Source of the DNA: a virus
DNA length: 33,402 nt
Reading direction: 5' to 3' (one strand)
Virus record (IMG/VR): IMGVR_UViG_3300012931_000055
Location: 1-33,402 of that record
How positions within the stretch are numbered: the first letter of the stretch is position 1; each line of letters opens with the position of its first letter. The translations under genes were made by a program, and so were the position numbers. Shown here one piece after another: positions 2,548 through 26,435 of the stretch. The notes below the pieces were generated by a model that was given only the letters and a program-made list of their open reading frames with translations, was not told the origin of the DNA and did no database searches.

Positions 2548-2745
2548 ATGTCAGCTAAACAACTTTTGATATGCCCTTTCTGTGGCGCGGGTCAGGGTGA
2601 AATCGGTAGCCGAATAACCTACCGGCGCAAACGTGGAGCAGTCCATTTTGAGCCTCAGGGAGAGTTCCAGCTCGATTGCTATGGATGCGGAAAAAGTAGT
2701 ATATTTAAAAGGTCGCCAAATGGCGATCTTATTTTTGTTCGGTAG
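2548..2745 (+). CDS. Small zinc-ribbon protein
   Basis: A 65-residue protein with two Cys pairs, CPFCG (C9, C12) and CYGCG (C44, C47), spaced as in a zinc ribbon. The intervening stretch is basic (TYRRKRG), which suggests nucleic-acid contact. The RBS AGAGGTG lies 8 bases before ATG. Its 3' end overlaps the end of the reverse-strand RHH gene by 17 bases. The function is unknown. Small zinc-ribbon proteins are common near phage terminases, but no role can be read from sequence alone. Confidence 0.75.
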   Translation: MSAKQLLICPFCGAGQGEIGSRITYRRKRGAVHFEPQGEFQLDCYGCGKSSIFKRSPNGDLIFVR

Positions 2746-2881
2746 AATGTTTTTCCATATATTCTTTTAAAGCTTTTTCAATTAATGCCGTAACACTCAA
2801 ATCATATTGAACGGCAAAAAGTTTTACTTGTTTATGAAACTCCGGATCAACAAGAATATGAATTTTCCCAGATGGTGACAT
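2729..2881 (-). CDS. Ribbon-helix-helix (CopG/Arc-like) regulator
   Basis: A 50-residue protein starting MSPSGKIHILVDPEF. It has a short basic beta-strand (KIHILV), helix A (EFHKQVKLFAVQYD), a turn with S-V-T, and helix B (ALIEKALKEYMEK), the RHH_1 fold pattern. The chosen ATG at 2881 has AAGGAG 9 bases upstream. An upstream in-frame ATG would place the RBS inside the gene. It is transcribed away from the plus-strand gene at 3003, and both promoters lie in the 110 bases between. RHH proteins usually bind repeats in their own promoter, so autoregulation and control of the divergent genes is likely (inference). Confidence 0.8.
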   Translation of the reverse strand: MSPSGKIHILVDPEFHKQVKLFAVQYDLSVTALIEKALKEYMEKHSTEQK

Positions 2882-2901
2882 ATGCAACACTCCTTTATTA
2901 A

Positions 2902-2930
2902 AATATAACATATGGTAATACAAATGTCAA
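2902..2930 (-). promoter_or_regulatory. Sigma-70 type promoter for the RHH gene
   Basis: Read on the minus strand: -35 TTGACA (2930-2925), 17-base spacer, -10 TATATT (2907-2902), then AAGGAG and the start at 2881. The consensus -35 and ideal spacing support it. Confidence 0.75.
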
Positions 2931-2938: not shown

Positions 2939-2967
2939 TTGACCCATTTATATAAATGTGGTATAAT
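2939..2967 (+). promoter_or_regulatory. Sigma-70 type promoter for the 3003 gene
   Basis: -35 TTGACC (2939-2944), 17-base spacer, -10 TATAAT (2962-2967) preceded by TGG (extended -10). It lies 36 bases before the TTG start at 3003. Confidence 0.8.
2945..2958. promoter_or_regulatory. 14-base palindrome in the promoter spacer (operator candidate)
   Basis: CATTTATATAAATG is a perfect palindrome that fills most of the spacer between -35 and -10 of the plus-strand promoter. A protein bound here would block RNA polymerase. The RHH protein encoded next door is the obvious candidate, but a winged-helix protein (3635 gene) is also possible. Confidence 0.55.
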
Positions 2968-3002
2968 ATATTATATAATAAATTTACGAAGGAGTGGTTA
3001 CG

Positions 3003-3632
3003 TTGACCCGAAAAGTAGAAGCGGTTATTGACGTTGAAAATTTAATTATTTCTAAACCAAAAAAATATTTGGTTACAATTCAAAGCTCAGGAGGAATTTT
3101 ATTCAATCGAATGTTGGCCGCGGGGGTACAAGAAACTGAGGAAACAGATCAGGCCAAGATTAGCCGGGCAGATAAAGAAAAATTAATATGGCGAGATAAG
3201 CTTTATTTTGACGGAGAAGATAACGTTTTTATTCCGGGCGAAAATATCCATGAATGCCTCAAAGATGGGTCAAAATATTGGGGGCAAAAAATACCGGGCG
3301 AAGGCAACAAAACATATACCGACATAATTAGTTCGGCGGTGGTGGTTGAAAATATTGATTTGGGGATGAAGAAAGACGATGATAGGATTATTCCTTTTGG
3401 GAAAATGGTTAACGGTAATCCTTCGAAAGGGAAAAAGTCCGGATGTAAAGTATATAAAATTCGTCCTCTGCTGATGCCGTGGGGTGGAAGTTTTATCTTG
3501 CATTCTTTTGACGCACGGATGAGCATTTCGATTTTAAAAACGGTCATTTCATACGCCGGAACGTTCAGAGGGTTAGGCGATTGGCGTCCAACATATGGAA
3601 GGTTTGAATTGATTAATATTAAGGAGGTTTAA
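3003..3632 (+). CDS. Unnamed phage protein with IPGENI and GLGDWRP motifs
   Basis: A 209-residue protein. The start is the TTG at 3003, which has AAGGAG 8 bases upstream; a GTG at 2994 would overlap that RBS. Visible marks are LYFDGEDNVFIPGENIHECL near residue 70-90 and a C-terminal glycine-aromatic motif GLGDWRPTYGRFEL at about 190-203. From memory, proteins with the same IPGENI and GLGDWRP-x-YGRF signatures recur in many phages without an assigned function. The glycine-rich loop near the C-terminus superficially recalls RAMP-fold proteins, which is only a suggestion. It is the first gene behind a strong promoter and is followed 2 bases later by the winged-helix-like gene, so the two probably act together. 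Confidence 0.75.
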   Translation: MTRKVEAVIDVENLIISKPKKYLVTIQSSGGILFNRMLAAGVQETEETDQAKISRADKEKLIWRDKLYFDGEDNVFIPGENIHECLKDGSKYWGQKIPGEGNKTYTDIISSAVVVENIDLGMKKDDDRIIPFGKMVNGNPSKGKKSGCKVYKIRPLLMPWGGSFILHSFDARMSISILKTVISYAGTFRGLGDWRPTYGRFELINIKEV

Positions 3633-3634
3633 TA

Positions 3635-4114
3635 ATGGTGAAAGTAAAAGAAGTCATTGAACAAGCTGCTGAAAATATATCACACATGAAACCCGGAACA
3701 ATTGTATTGCGCGATGCGTTGGAAGCCCTTCTGGGAATAACGAATATAGATTGGGAAGAAGACAAATATAGATCGAGAGTGCAAAGGCTGATTGAATGCT
3801 TAGAAAAAGAATATCATATTTTTTTAAAATGTGATAACGGTAATGGGTATAAAATTTTGCAGCCTGGTGATGAAATTGAACTTATAAGCGACAAATTTAA
3901 TAAAGCAACTAAAAGAGTCGTAAAAGTACAGCAAAAAATTCCAATGATTAACATCGGGGCAATAAAAGATCCGGTTAAACGTGACCGGACGATACACGAG
4001 GCACAAAGAATTATGATGACTCAATTGCTGTATCCTAAAGGCGTATATTTGACGAAAGAAAATTTAATTTCTGAAAATGCAAGCCGGGATAATAAACAAC
4101 AAAAAGCAATATAA
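3635..4114 (+). CDS. Winged-helix-like DNA-binding protein, hypothetical
   Basis: A 159-residue soluble protein. Residues about 20-75 look like a winged helix: an N-terminal helix, KYRSRVQRLIECLEKEY as the recognition-helix region, then a beta-wing ending GNGYKILQPGD, similar to phage and OmpR-type C-terminal wHTH domains. The C-terminal half is basic and helical (PVKRDRTIHEAQRIMMTQLL). An AGGAGG RBS precedes ATG. It is coupled to the 3003 gene and directly precedes the pentamer array, so it could bind the array or the island promoter; both ideas are inference. Confidence 0.65.
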   Translation: MVKVKEVIEQAAENISHMKPGTIVLRDALEALLGITNIDWEEDKYRSRVQRLIECLEKEYHIFLKCDNGNGYKILQPGDEIELISDKFNKATKRVVKVQQKIPMINIGAIKDPVKRDRTIHEAQRIMMTQLLYPKGVYLTKENLISENASRDNKQQKAI

Positions 4115-4116
4115 AA

Positions 4117-4460
4117 CATGGTTCATGGCCAGGCGGGGCTTGGCAAGGCTTGGCAAGGCCGGGCCGGGCTTGGCAAGGCAGGGTTCAAGGCATGACCAGG
4201 CGGGGCGAGGCGAGGCAAGGCATGGTTCATGGCATGGCGCGGCGAGGCCTGGCGAGGCATGGCAAGGCTTGGTATGGTTCAAGGCAAGGCCGGGCCGGGC
4301 GAGGCATGGCTTGGCATGGCATGGCATGGTTCGAGGCAGGGCCAGGCAGGGCGAGGCATGGCTTGGCATGGCTTGGCATGGCTTGGCGTGGCAGGGTTCA
4401 CGGCTGGGCAAGGCAGGGCAAGGTTGGGCATGGCTTGGCAAGGCTTGGCATGGCATGGTA
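4117..4460. repeat. G-rich CNNGG pentanucleotide array with TTCNNGG interruptions
   Basis: About 60 consecutive units of form CNNGG (mostly CATGG, CTTGG, CAAGG, CGAGG, CCGGG) fill the gap between the winged-helix gene and a terminator. At six places a 7-base unit TTCNNGG replaces a pentamer (TTC at 4122, 4184, 4226, 4278, 4330, 4397). The intervals of 62, 42, 52, 52 and 67 are all 5n+2. The plus strand has GG every five bases, so two-tier G-quadruplex potential is continuous. GC content is far above the flanks. Frames through it stay open only because the unit lacks stop triplets; I do not consider them genes. Confidence 0.95.
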
Positions 4461-4499
4461 AGTAATAAATTAAAAATTTAATATTTGTGTGGCTTTGTT

Positions 4500-4544
4500 G
4501 GCCCTATCTCTTAACTTAACGGTTGAGAGGTAGGGCCTTTTTTT
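4500..4544 (+). terminator. Strong intrinsic terminator after the pentamer array
   Basis: A 16-bp stem (4500-4515 with 4522-4537, two G-U pairs) with a 6-base loop is followed by seven T. It ends the island transcript before the portal module. Confidence 0.9.
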
Positions 4545-4566
4545 ATTGTCTAAAAGGAGGTTATCA

Positions 4567-4842
4567 ATGGAATATACTTTGTTAATTCCTGGTTTAATTA
4601 TCGGTCTTTTACTTTTTATCATGCTAAACAATCGCTTCAAATTGATAAAAAAGCCCAAAATTAAGCTTCCAAAATGGCGGTTTAATGTTGATAAATTCGA
4701 CAATTTTATCCTTAATGCCGGTTTTATCGGTTTTTTTTGTATGCTGTTTGTCGGGATTAAGGGTTTCGATTGGCGATTAGCTTGTATAATCTGCGGCGGG
4801 GCCGGCTTGTGGTTCTGTTTCCCGCGGGGGGAGGCGAAATAA
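4567..4842 (+). CDS. Small membrane protein upstream of portal
   Basis: A 91-residue protein with three hydrophobic segments at about residues 4-21, 48-64 and 69-85, separated by a lysine-rich stretch (KLIKKPKIKLPK). The ATG at 4567 has AAGGAGG 6 bases upstream; a TTG at 4546 lies before the RBS and is rejected. The family is not recognised. It starts the portal operon just after the terminator, an unusual place for a membrane protein, and may act in superinfection exclusion or DNA entry (speculative). Confidence 0.75.
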   Translation: MEYTLLIPGLIIGLLLFIMLNNRFKLIKKPKIKLPKWRFNVDKFDNFILNAGFIGFFCMLFVGIKGFDWRLACIICGGAGLWFCFPRGEAK

Positions 4843-4845
4843 TGA

Positions 4846-6147
4846 ATGAGTTTTATAAATCGACAAGCTAAAATGATTAGAAATTCTTGGCAGCCCGAAA
4901 CGCTACAAGAATTGGACAATCGAATAATGGGTAGAGGAGGAATGCCAACCACTACAGGGCTTTATGTTGGAGAACAGACTTCTCTAAATCTAATCGAAGT
5001 CCAAAAGTGTGTAAATGTTTTGGCCAGAACGGAGGGATGTCTTGAGACCAAAATTTTCAAATGGTCGGATACGGCACGGCGAAAAAAAGAAGAAGCCTGG
5101 GCACATCCACTTTATGAACTATTGGTTATAGCTCCAAACAACGAAACCGACGCTCAAAGTTATACCGAAACTGAATCTTTGTTTTTGTCGCTGTGGGGTA
5201 ATCATGCATCTATTATAACCAGAAATACTAGTCGTAATAGAAATATCACTGAGCTTTATCAATGGAAATGGTGGGAAGTCCGGGTGAAACGGGACAAAGA
5301 AACCAATGAGTTATTTTATGAACATTGGGAGCGAGGCAAATGGGAACCATATCCTGCTGAAAAAATATTTCATATTAATTGCATGGGGTACGATGGAGTT
5401 GTTGGGCTGTCAGTAATTGGCATGGCATGCGAACATGTAGCCCAAGGATTGGCAATGTCGGAATTCTCTAATCGGTTTTTCGGGAATGGAATGCATACCA
5501 ATCTGGTTTTGGAAAGCCCCAATGCTCTTAGCGATATCGTTCGCAAAAATTTGGGTACAGCATTAAAAGAAATGCATACAGGATTAAGCCATTCTTGGGA
5601 ACCGTTTATTTTGGAAGAAGGGACCAAATGGGCAACCGTCCCGATGTCGTTTGTTGATGCTCAATTTGTCGACATGATGAAGCTTAACAAAATTGATATT
5701 GATGGAATGTTTGGAGTTCCGCCGCCATTGGTCGGGAGTAGTTACGATGGATTAACGTACAGCAATGTTGAGCAGCTAAGTTTGACCTATGTCCTATATA
5801 CGCTTTTGCCGATTGTAACCCGGCGCGAACGGATGATGAACTGGAAACTTTTAACCCGCCAAGAGAGAGAAGCGGGTTATTTTGTTCAAACCAATATCAA
5901 TACGCTTCTTCGCGCTGATGCTAAGGCCAGGGGCGAATATTTCAAAAATAAAATTCAGAATGGCGGTATGTCGCCAAATGATTGGCGCAAGGAAGATAAT
6001 GAAAATCCAATTCCAGGGGCTGCCGGGGATGCTTATTTCGCCAACGGCAATTTTAGAACTCTTGATCAGATTTTGGCGAATGACATAGGCAACAAAAGCA
6101 GCAATTCAAATAATCAAAACGGAGGTGAAAACAATGCAACAGAGTAA
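4846..6147 (+). CDS. Phage portal protein, HK97 type
   Basis: Forms the dodecameric ring at one vertex through which DNA enters and leaves and on which the head assembles. The 433-residue sequence carries the family pattern: N-terminal VQKCVNVLARTEGCLETKIF, HPLYELLVIAPNN, a clip region around IITRNTSRN, FHINCMGYDGVVGLSVIG, FFGNGMHTNLVLE and the segment DGMFGVPPPLVG. The C-terminus is low-complexity Asn-rich. The length is normal (400-450). It sits before the protease, the standard head-module order. The end overlaps the protease start. Confidence 0.95.
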   Translation: MSFINRQAKMIRNSWQPETLQELDNRIMGRGGMPTTTGLYVGEQTSLNLIEVQKCVNVLARTEGCLETKIFKWSDTARRKKEEAWAHPLYELLVIAPNNETDAQSYTETESLFLSLWGNHASIITRNTSRNRNITELYQWKWWEVRVKRDKETNELFYEHWERGKWEPYPAEKIFHINCMGYDGVVGLSVIGMACEHVAQGLAMSEFSNRFFGNGMHTNLVLESPNALSDIVRKNLGTALKEMHTGLSHSWEPFILEEGTKWATVPMSFVDAQFVDMMKLNKIDIDGMFGVPPPLVGSSYDGLTYSNVEQLSLTYVLYTLLPIVTRRERMMNWKLLTRQEREAGYFVQTNINTLLRADAKARGEYFKNKIQNGGMSPNDWRKEDNENPIPGAAGDAYFANGNFRTLDQILANDIGNKSSNSNNQNGGENNATE

Positions 6148-15020: not shown

Positions 15021-15677
15021 ATGAATAAAGCAAAAGATTTTACCGGCAAAAGATTTGGGAAATTAGTTGCAATTGAAAATACAAATCAAAAAGATAAAAG
15101 TAGGCAATATATTTGGAAATGTCGATGTGATTGTGGAAATATAATATCTACCTCAAATAGAAATTTAACTAGCGGAGCAAGTAAGAGTTGCGGTAAATGT
15201 CCAACTAATACTTTTTATAAGTTTTGTAATTTTGTAATGGGATTAACCGCTAAAGGGGAGCCTTTCTATTTTGATATTGAAGATTTCGAATTAGTAACTA
15301 AATATAATTGGCATATTACAGATAAAGGAAGGGTTCAAACAAATACTCCAGATGGGCCGGTTAGAATGCATCGATTATTAACAGGTTTTCCGCCAAATGA
15401 CGTTGATCACAGAAATGGGGAACAAAATAATAATCGGCGTTACAATCTTCGGGTTTGCAGCCATGCCAATAACATGAGAAATATGAAAAAACATATTGAT
15501 GGGAGTTCTAAATATAAAGGCGTTTCTTGGGCTAGTCATTGTAGAAAATGGCGGGCTCAAATTTTTATTGATGGCAAAAGAATTCATTTAGGATATTTCG
15601 GTTCCGAAGAATTAGCCCATAAAGAATATTGCAAGGCCAGCTTAAAATATCATGGTGAATTTGGAAGAACGGCTTAA
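15021..15677 (+). CDS. HNH homing endonuclease with AP2 domain
   Basis: A 218-residue mobile endonuclease. Residues 8-60 carry a small domain with Cys pairs (CRCDC at 34-38, CGKC at 57-60) that probably binds zinc, seen in phage HNH proteins beginning FGKL. The HNH core is MHRLLTGFPPNDVDHRNGE (residues 116-134) with H117, D129-H130 and N142, then NNMRN. An AP2 DNA-binding domain follows (YKGVSWASHCRKWRAQI to the end). It makes a site-specific cut that favours its own copying. AAGGAG precedes ATG. It is inserted between chaperone and tape-measure genes and is free-standing. Confidence 0.92.
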   Translation: MNKAKDFTGKRFGKLVAIENTNQKDKSRQYIWKCRCDCGNIISTSNRNLTSGASKSCGKCPTNTFYKFCNFVMGLTAKGEPFYFDIEDFELVTKYNWHITDKGRVQTNTPDGPVRMHRLLTGFPPNDVDHRNGEQNNNRRYNLRVCSHANNMRNMKKHIDGSSKYKGVSWASHCRKWRAQIFIDGKRIHLGYFGSEELAHKEYCKASLKYHGEFGRTA

Positions 15678-25538: not shown

Positions 25539-26435
25539 TTAAAAATTTTGAATAAATGAAACCGAATAGGTGGTGGAATCCCATGTTACCTCATTAAGCT
25601 GTGTTTGAGATATAGAACCATCGGCAAAATATGTTGTATCTATGCCGGAATTAGTTTTCCAGTCTAAATAACTGACTTTAAAGCGGATTGTGGTATAGTC
25701 TTTGCATAAATAATCGATTCCTACGGCTATTGCATAACCATCGCCGTCTGCTGTATGTCTAAAACTGACTGGATGTTGGAAATCAGTTCTTAAATTCCAG
25801 TTAGCTTTAGCTTCATAGTCCATCCAATGGTATTCAACGGTATTATACAGTTTGACTTTAGGACCCAAAGCTTTCTCTAAATTAATTCCAACCCAAGGAC
25901 CGTACCATTCGGTTTCGTATGTGCTATGAAGTCCGGAAAAGGAACCAGTGGCCGGTATTGTCTGGTAACCATTGGTCATAACGAGATTCTGTTGGTTATA
26001 AGAATAACCCAGCATCGGAGAAATAATAAAAGTTGGTTTTTGAACTAAATAGAACCCTAAAGCTCCAGAAAGATCGAGAGTATTATCGCCGTTAGCATCA
26101 TTGTTTGATCTGGAATATTCATCTGCCCGGTTATCGCTGTTATAATCAGAATCTTGATTTTTGCCGTTTACAATAATGCCATATTTAAAATTGCCATAGA
26201 AAAAACAATTATCTTCAAGATCTGTTTTGACAAATCCGTCAAGTTGATAAATCTTTAAATCTGTCCAGGTCAATTCTGACAAAATATTTGGGCTTGTACC
26301 ATAGATATTCCCGGCGATATTCCATTGAAGATTATCAACTCGATAATCAAAGCTTATGCCGCTTTCGGTTTGGGCCATAGCCGGACTAGCCCAAAGTAAC
26401 AAAAGGGCAATAACTATCAATAGTTTAGTTTTCAT
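25539..26435 (-). CDS. Outer-membrane beta-barrel protein (omptin/Pom-like)
   Basis: A 298-residue protein with a clear signal peptide (MKTKLLIVIALLLLWASPAMA, cleavage near 21). The mature part alternates polar and aromatic residues in many strands. Diagnostic-looking segments are NILSELTWTDLKIYQLDG, GYSYNQQNL, WYGPWVGINL, NWNLRTDFQHPVSFRHTADG and the C-terminal FIQNF, whose last Phe is the BAM recognition signature. From memory these resemble an omptin-like or Protochlamydia-outer-membrane-protein-like barrel family; protease residues were not verified. It lies on the reverse strand between two fibre genes and is co-transcribed with an RHH regulator. It may alter the receptor landscape of the lysogen (inference). 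Confidence 0.82.
   Translation of the reverse strand: MKTKLLIVIALLLLWASPAMAQTESGISFDYRVDNLQWNIAGNIYGTSPNILSELTWTDLKIYQLDGFVKTDLEDNCFFYGNFKYGIIVNGKNQDSDYNSDNRADEYSRSNNDANGDNTLDLSGALGFYLVQKPTFIISPMLGYSYNQQNLVMTNGYQTIPATGSFSGLHSTYETEWYGPWVGINLEKALGPKVKLYNTVEYHWMDYEAKANWNLRTDFQHPVSFRHTADGDGYAIAVGIDYLCKDYTTIRFKVSYLDWKTNSGIDTTYFADGSISQTQLNEVTWDSTTYSVSFIQNF

Follow-up and report, generated by a model that had tools for sequence, protein, structure and literature searches.

The closest described relative of the locus considered here is VIPR, an RNA-guided means of DNA recognition that combines the RAMP protein Vipr, accessory vap genes and guide RNAs termed vrRNAs (PMC13142463, bioRxiv, April/June 2026). 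It has been portrayed as a CRISPR-like DNA-silencing weapon directed by phage against phage, and as older than CRISPR with a noncontiguous code, a description that comes from this one preprint (PMC13142463). The vrRNAs consist of 9-16 YNNGG repeats in which NN pairs with double-stranded DNA and one target base is skipped (PMC13142463). In phage SUSP1, the vrRNAs, their code and repression have been measured, with NN found to programme targeting, and both SUSP1 and a Pseudomonas fulva prophage have served in tests of reporter repression and phage defence (PMC13142463).

The DNA analysed in this work, hereafter the window, is a 33,402-nt stretch of a viral record in IMG/VR (IMGVR_UViG_3300012931_000055). 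Directly 3' of a vap-like gene and on the strand of a vipr gene, it carries an array of five-nucleotide GGYNN units, which is very probably the vrRNA array of a phage-borne VIPR system. A preliminary description of this DNA had held that such an array has no known role, a statement now out of date since the VIPR preprint gives one (PMC13142463). The cassette comprises the following features.

2729-2923, minus strand: divergent ribbon-helix-helix gene, with sub-threshold matches to Antitox_RHH (4e-5) and HicB-type families, and with matches to Arc-like PHROGs
2939-2967, plus strand: predicted sigma-70 promoter, TTGACC-17-TATAAT with TG before the -10 element, agreeing with 11 of 12 consensus bases (consensus match only)
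2994-3632, plus strand: vipr, for a predicted Cas7-like RAMP protein; the listed start is GTG at 2994, and TTG at 3003 better fits the AGGAG at 2990
3635-4114, plus strand: vap-like accessory gene, for a product with a predicted winged helix and helical C-terminus
4459-4493, plus strand: AU-rich hairpin past the last unit (RNA fold), possibly a single 3' tail
4500-4544, plus strand: predicted intrinsic terminator, a 17-pair stem (4500-4537) followed by a T-run, the stem being recovered by RNA folding

Membership of the window locus in VIPR is well supported by sequence comparison. The product of 2994-3632 falls into phrog_4652 in common with SUSP1 agp039, which the Vipr family profile (HMM) matches at 1.5e-50, and the product of 3635-4114 falls into phrog_5926 in common with SUSP1 agp038, which the vap profile (HMM) matches at 6.8e-22. 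Since both proteins share PHROGs with vipr and vap1 of SUSP1 and match them by profile, the locus is taken to be a VIPR system. The two loci are alike in the order vipr then vap, in both PHROG families, in the Cas7-type fold, and in having GGY/NN repeats in flanking intergenic RNA where GGY is conserved and NN hypervariable. The window Vipr is nonetheless strongly diverged from that of SUSP1, as the window protein alone matches agp039 at only 2.9e-12 (phmmer).

An AlphaFold2 model of Vipr built with 75 aligned homologues has a pLDDT of 91.6. Among the matches listed from a Foldseek comparison of this model with the PDB, the top ones are CRISPR Cas7/Csm3/Cmr-type chains, and a second structural alignment gives Z of about 13 to type VII Cas7 and Csm3; the product is thus confidently predicted from its model to be a Cas7/Csm3-type RAMP. 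With the Cas7 proteins of type III and type VII CRISPR (Csm3, Cmr-type, type VII Cas7) it would share the RAMP fold and glycine-rich loop, the formation of oligomeric RNA-guided complexes, and pairing that is disrupted periodically. It differs from them in an RNA period of 5 nt rather than 6 nt and in a sequence identity of about 11%, and the locus differs from type III/VII CRISPR in having no CRISPR repeats, Cas1/Cas2 or other cas genes. Tandem Repeats Finder returned no CRISPR repeat-spacer array, and vipr and vap are the only genes in the unit. The AF2 model of Vap (pLDDT 88) has an N-terminal winged helix and a helical C-terminus, with weak matches of PhoB/OmpR type (best E 0.08). In Pfam and PADLOC, the Vipr proteins match no defence or RAMP family and Vap has no trustworthy match either.

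Because a promoter lies just before vipr and a strong terminator just after the array, vipr, vap and the array appear to form one unit that runs from predicted promoter to predicted terminator. The RNA fold of 4395-4540 has a z of -3.65, contributed mostly by the terminator, and an Rfam search of 3500-5000 returned nothing over threshold. The divergent ribbon-helix-helix gene has a promoter-like site of its own, and judging by position its product might be a regulator of the cassette; the gene was not seen beside the VIPR locus of the closest Vipr relative found (L143). The cassette as a whole sits in the packaging region, with the terminase gene (789-2462) on one side and the portal gene (4846-6147) on the other.

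The array proper occupies 4120-4461; the preliminary description was right that an array exists and placed it slightly off, at 4117-4460. It forms a chain of 65 GG(C/T)-anchored units, of which 57 stand at 5-nt and six at 7-nt spacing. The motif GGTTCNNGG starts at 4120, 4182, 4224, 4276, 4328 and 4395 and is absent from the rest of the 33,402-nt window. The resulting spacings of 62, 42, 52, 52 and 67 are all of the form 5n+2, exactly as first described for the six TTCNNGG inserts. The distance between inserts is an integer number of units and each insert shifts the 5-nt register by 2, so the earlier idea of a phase kept across the inserts holds for the whole units between them and fails for the register itself. 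Read in this way, the array divides into six guide segments of 8-13 NN each.

4120-4181, plus strand: guide segment 1, a GGTTCAT separator, then 11 GGYNN units
4182-4223, plus strand: guide segment 2, a GGTTCAA separator, then 7 units, one GG being mutated to GA
4224-4275, plus strand: guide segment 3, a GGTTCAT separator, then 9 units
4276-4327, plus strand: guide segment 4, a GGTTCAA separator, then 9 units
4328-4394, plus strand: guide segment 5, a GGTTCGA separator, then 12 units
4395-4461, plus strand: guide segment 6, a GGTTCAC separator, then the final GGYNN units, ending in GGTAA

Owing to the single GG to GA change that it carries (GGCATGACCAGG), guide 2 may be dead. Within the array up to 13 exact GGYNN units follow one another without interruption, compared with 3 in the remainder of the window and no more than 4 in any of 1000 mononucleotide shuffles of the array sequence; the reversed pattern and the opposite strand gave 0 matches within the window. 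The variable dinucleotides (n=57) are led by AT (14), TT (10), AA (9) and GA (6), the same four that had been singled out before.

The guides of 8-13 NN compare with 9-16 repeats in SUSP1, one window segment (8) being slightly below that range. The arrangement of the guides is where the two systems part. In SUSP1 the vrRNAs are separate molecules of about 100 nt that bear a structured 3' tail, three of them lying downstream and one upstream, whereas the window has six contiguous guides with only 7-nt separators between them and at most one tail before the terminator. No structured tail was found between the window guides, and one AU-rich hairpin follows the array. The preprint mentions "staggered arrays with overlapping vrRNAs" for some VIPR systems (PMC13142463, fig. 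S18), and the contiguous architecture of the window may, as far as that mention goes, be an instance of these.

The distribution of the repeat was surveyed by scanning IMG/VR for the bare pattern GGC(NNGGC)x7, with no protein used, which returned at least 120 loci. An iterative HMM seeded from 2994-3632 found a homologue of that protein in 85 of the 120 loci listed. Where an array lies within 3 kb of a vipr homologue, the two share a strand in 114 of 117 cases among the loci listed, at a median distance of 38 nt and within 100 bp in 72 of the 117; the array is upstream in 38 and downstream in 79. The phages concerned are very diverse, and isolates are among them, for example Gordonia phage Trine and Felix O1-like coliphages. 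This close, same-strand linkage identifies the GGYNN repeat as one half of a protein-RNA pair across very diverse phages.

The survey bears on two other explanations of the array. A DNA-level element, whether a replication origin, a packaging site or a G-quadruplex array, would fit the occurrence of GG every 5 nt on a single strand and the position of the cassette between the terminase and portal genes. It is nevertheless very improbable, for the arrays keep to the vipr strand (114 of 117 among the loci listed) and stay near vipr in unrelated phages, the window array is placed between the vap gene and the terminator, and the vipr cassette of L143 is found outside any terminase-portal context in the stretch examined. 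The GG periodicity is accounted for by the GGY motif of vrRNAs. The array strand and the linkage to vipr across such diverse phages likewise leave unsupported the earlier suggestions of a replication or packaging site and of a host repeat family. That the array is a functionless low-complexity expansion or an assembly artefact, to both of which tandem repeats are prone, is scarcely credible, since the same grammar recurs with different NN in many independent contigs and also in sequenced isolates (Gordonia and Felix O1-like phages). The reading of the array as an RNA that works with a neighbouring protein, put forward in the preliminary description as an RNA element at the 3' end of the mRNA, probably stands in outline, with the difference that the main partner would be Vipr (2994-3632) and the 3635 product the accessory Vap.

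Several other features were observed in the surveyed loci. One VIPR array of 1.6 kb (L063, 1933-3546, minus strand) is divided by about 38 separators, most of them GGCA, giving nearly 40 guides. Three others (L034, 7605-9177; L072, 4354-5152; L007, 6301-7015) run for about 140-310 GGYNN units almost free of separators. At the ends of some VIPR arrays there are tRNA-like minihelices, with an acceptor-like stem and a T-arm bearing a GGTTCGA-type loop (L130, 3495-3616; L131, 2768; L132, 1666 and 3117; L004, 3799; L019, 6889 and 7182; L093, 1785); they occur in phages of Gordonia and Mycobacterium and at several metagenomic loci. These minihelices are possibly 3' tails or processing signals, and the main text of the VIPR preprint makes no mention of them (PMC13142463). 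The VIPR region of phage Alf5 is matched by 230 Felix O1-like phage records, 114 of which hold most of the region. Several Felix O1-like records keep mainly its flanks (e.g. FO1a, JH2), which suggests that they are natural VIPR-less variants.

When arrays are parsed across loci, the inserts appear as recurrent punctuation in the form of 7-nt GG-NN-Y-NN units. The types observed are GGTTC (window, L101), GGAAC (L115, L116, L055), GGTAC (L024, L036) and GGACC (L109, L052), and a larger group of loci has a 4-nt GGCA separator instead (L022, L053, L060 and L063 among them). The median length of inner segments is 11 NN with the 7-nt type and 9 NN with the 4-nt type, roughly that of a single guide as published. 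The type of separator is in step with Vipr phylogeny: on the Vipr tree the 4-nt type requires 8 changes compared with 20 when shuffled, and the 7-nt type 4 compared with 8.6, with 0 of 500 shuffles as low as observed for either type. In a boundary-shift test with the border left unshifted, the observed value was attained by 7 of 200 shuffles, for which reason the support for separators as guide borders is modest; with a shift of -1/0, picked after viewing the data, 1 of 200 does so.

A search with the single window protein found no close Vipr kin, and L143, the closest relative found at 66% identity, emerged only from an alignment-based search. It has arrays on both sides of its vipr-vap pair, with 7-nt separators GGTTT, GGCTC and GGATT and segments of 9-11 units. 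Compared with the window, its sequence keeps GGY and the 7-nt separators and differs in NN, so that the 5n+2 phase proposed as a check on homologues does recur in this relative. The second-closest relative (L144, 52%) shows no GGY array; its GC-rich upstream stretch (4500-4860) has CGCNN-like 5-nt units, and it may use a different repeat consensus. As a tentative proposal, on balance somewhat doubtful, the two alternative marks (7-nt GGNNYNN and 4-nt GGCA) could be borders that the Vipr filament itself reads and that co-evolve with Vipr, in which case the guides on an RNA with one tail could number anywhere between six and nearly forty.

No convincing natural target emerged when IMG/VR was scanned for exact matches of 9-10 NN, one base being skipped, to window guides 1, 3, 4, 5 and 6. 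Neither guide 4 nor guide 5 had an exact match there. Guide 1 matched one tape-measure gene, guide 3 six contigs (one at 10/10 NN), and guide 6 nine contigs, six of which represent one portal-like gene; these matches are treated as chance because the flanking unit usually fails and the phages are unrelated. As to the host, a search of genomes with the terminase found no close kin, and the closest phage terminases (46-49%) derive mainly from Clostridia, a loose pointer. The window also encodes a beta-barrel outer membrane protein (25539-26435, minus strand; Pfam Pom, Protochlamydia outer membrane protein, E 1.4e-61), which suggests a diderm host. An HNH/AP2 homing endonuclease-like gene is inserted among the tail genes (15021-15677, plus strand).

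The pairing code can also be approached through the guides themselves. Over 96 loci, the first and second N of a unit are associated in the way that neighbouring bases of the genome are (z 8.7), and the last base of one NN shows a weak association with the first base of the next (z 2.1). When 398 guides from 129 loci are modelled with all units of a guide in one codon phase, as expected from a one-base skip with period 3, the result exceeds that of unit shuffles (z 3.3, 0 of 100), while models in which the phase advances do not rise above shuffles (skip 2, z 0.6; skip 0/3, z 0.9; 129 loci). Codon positions 1-2 are the phase preferred (184 of 286 guides, both strands counted), which fits the published tendency of the skip to fall on the wobble base (PMC13142463). 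Across 96-129 loci, then, the NN statistics agree with the published one-base-skip code. In the window alone, the codon-phase preference is weak and its NN set shows no preference for codon positions 1-2 in the phage's own genes. A codon-position likelihood also favours positions 1-2 (94 loci), much of which is composition; it was dropped as evidence, as all frames gain similarly with composition fixed, and since it is partly composition, reliance is placed only on the phase-coherence and adjacency tests. Comparison of all guides with about 1.1 Mb of surveyed locus sequence did not separate the skip lengths.

These tests also weigh on the possibility that the array RNA is a decoy or autoregulatory site for an RNA-binding protein, with NN free of target information. 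The trp RNA-binding attenuation protein (TRAP) is an oligomer that binds GAGNN repeats, a fixed triplet followed by about two free bases; its fold is unrelated to that of Vipr, and the free bases in its repeats are not known to carry information. A fixed triplet with a free dinucleotide every 5 nt does resemble TRAP sites, and a decoy would be in keeping with the lack of targets found for the window guides. Such a role is nonetheless improbable, given that NN associate like adjacent genomic bases, that guides hold one codon phase, that separators divide the array into guide-sized pieces, and that NN in SUSP1 have been shown to programme targeting (PMC13142463).

Returning to the array as a set of VIPR guides, we infer transcription, processing, binding and targets in this phage from SUSP1 and the survey statistics. 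One transcript would run from the promoter near 2939 through vipr, vap and the array to the terminator near 4540, and would carry six guides, each beginning with a 7-nt GGTTCNN separator that is followed by a run of GGYNN units. By homology with SUSP1, Cas7-like Vipr molecules would assemble along this RNA, presumably with one copy for each GGYNN unit, each gripping GGY and presenting NN. The NN may then pair with double-stranded DNA, one target base being skipped between successive NN, so that the Vipr-RNA complex would repress genes of competing phages or prophages, with the predicted winged-helix protein Vap enhancing repression.

For the family, the window phage contributes a diverged VIPR member whose compact array holds six guides. 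As the survey shows, VIPR systems can be found in large numbers from bare sequence patterns, the punctuation of the arrays goes with the Vipr protein, and the one-base-skip code can be seen in the statistics of the guides even where no target is known. Guide delimitation in contiguous arrays is now directly testable.
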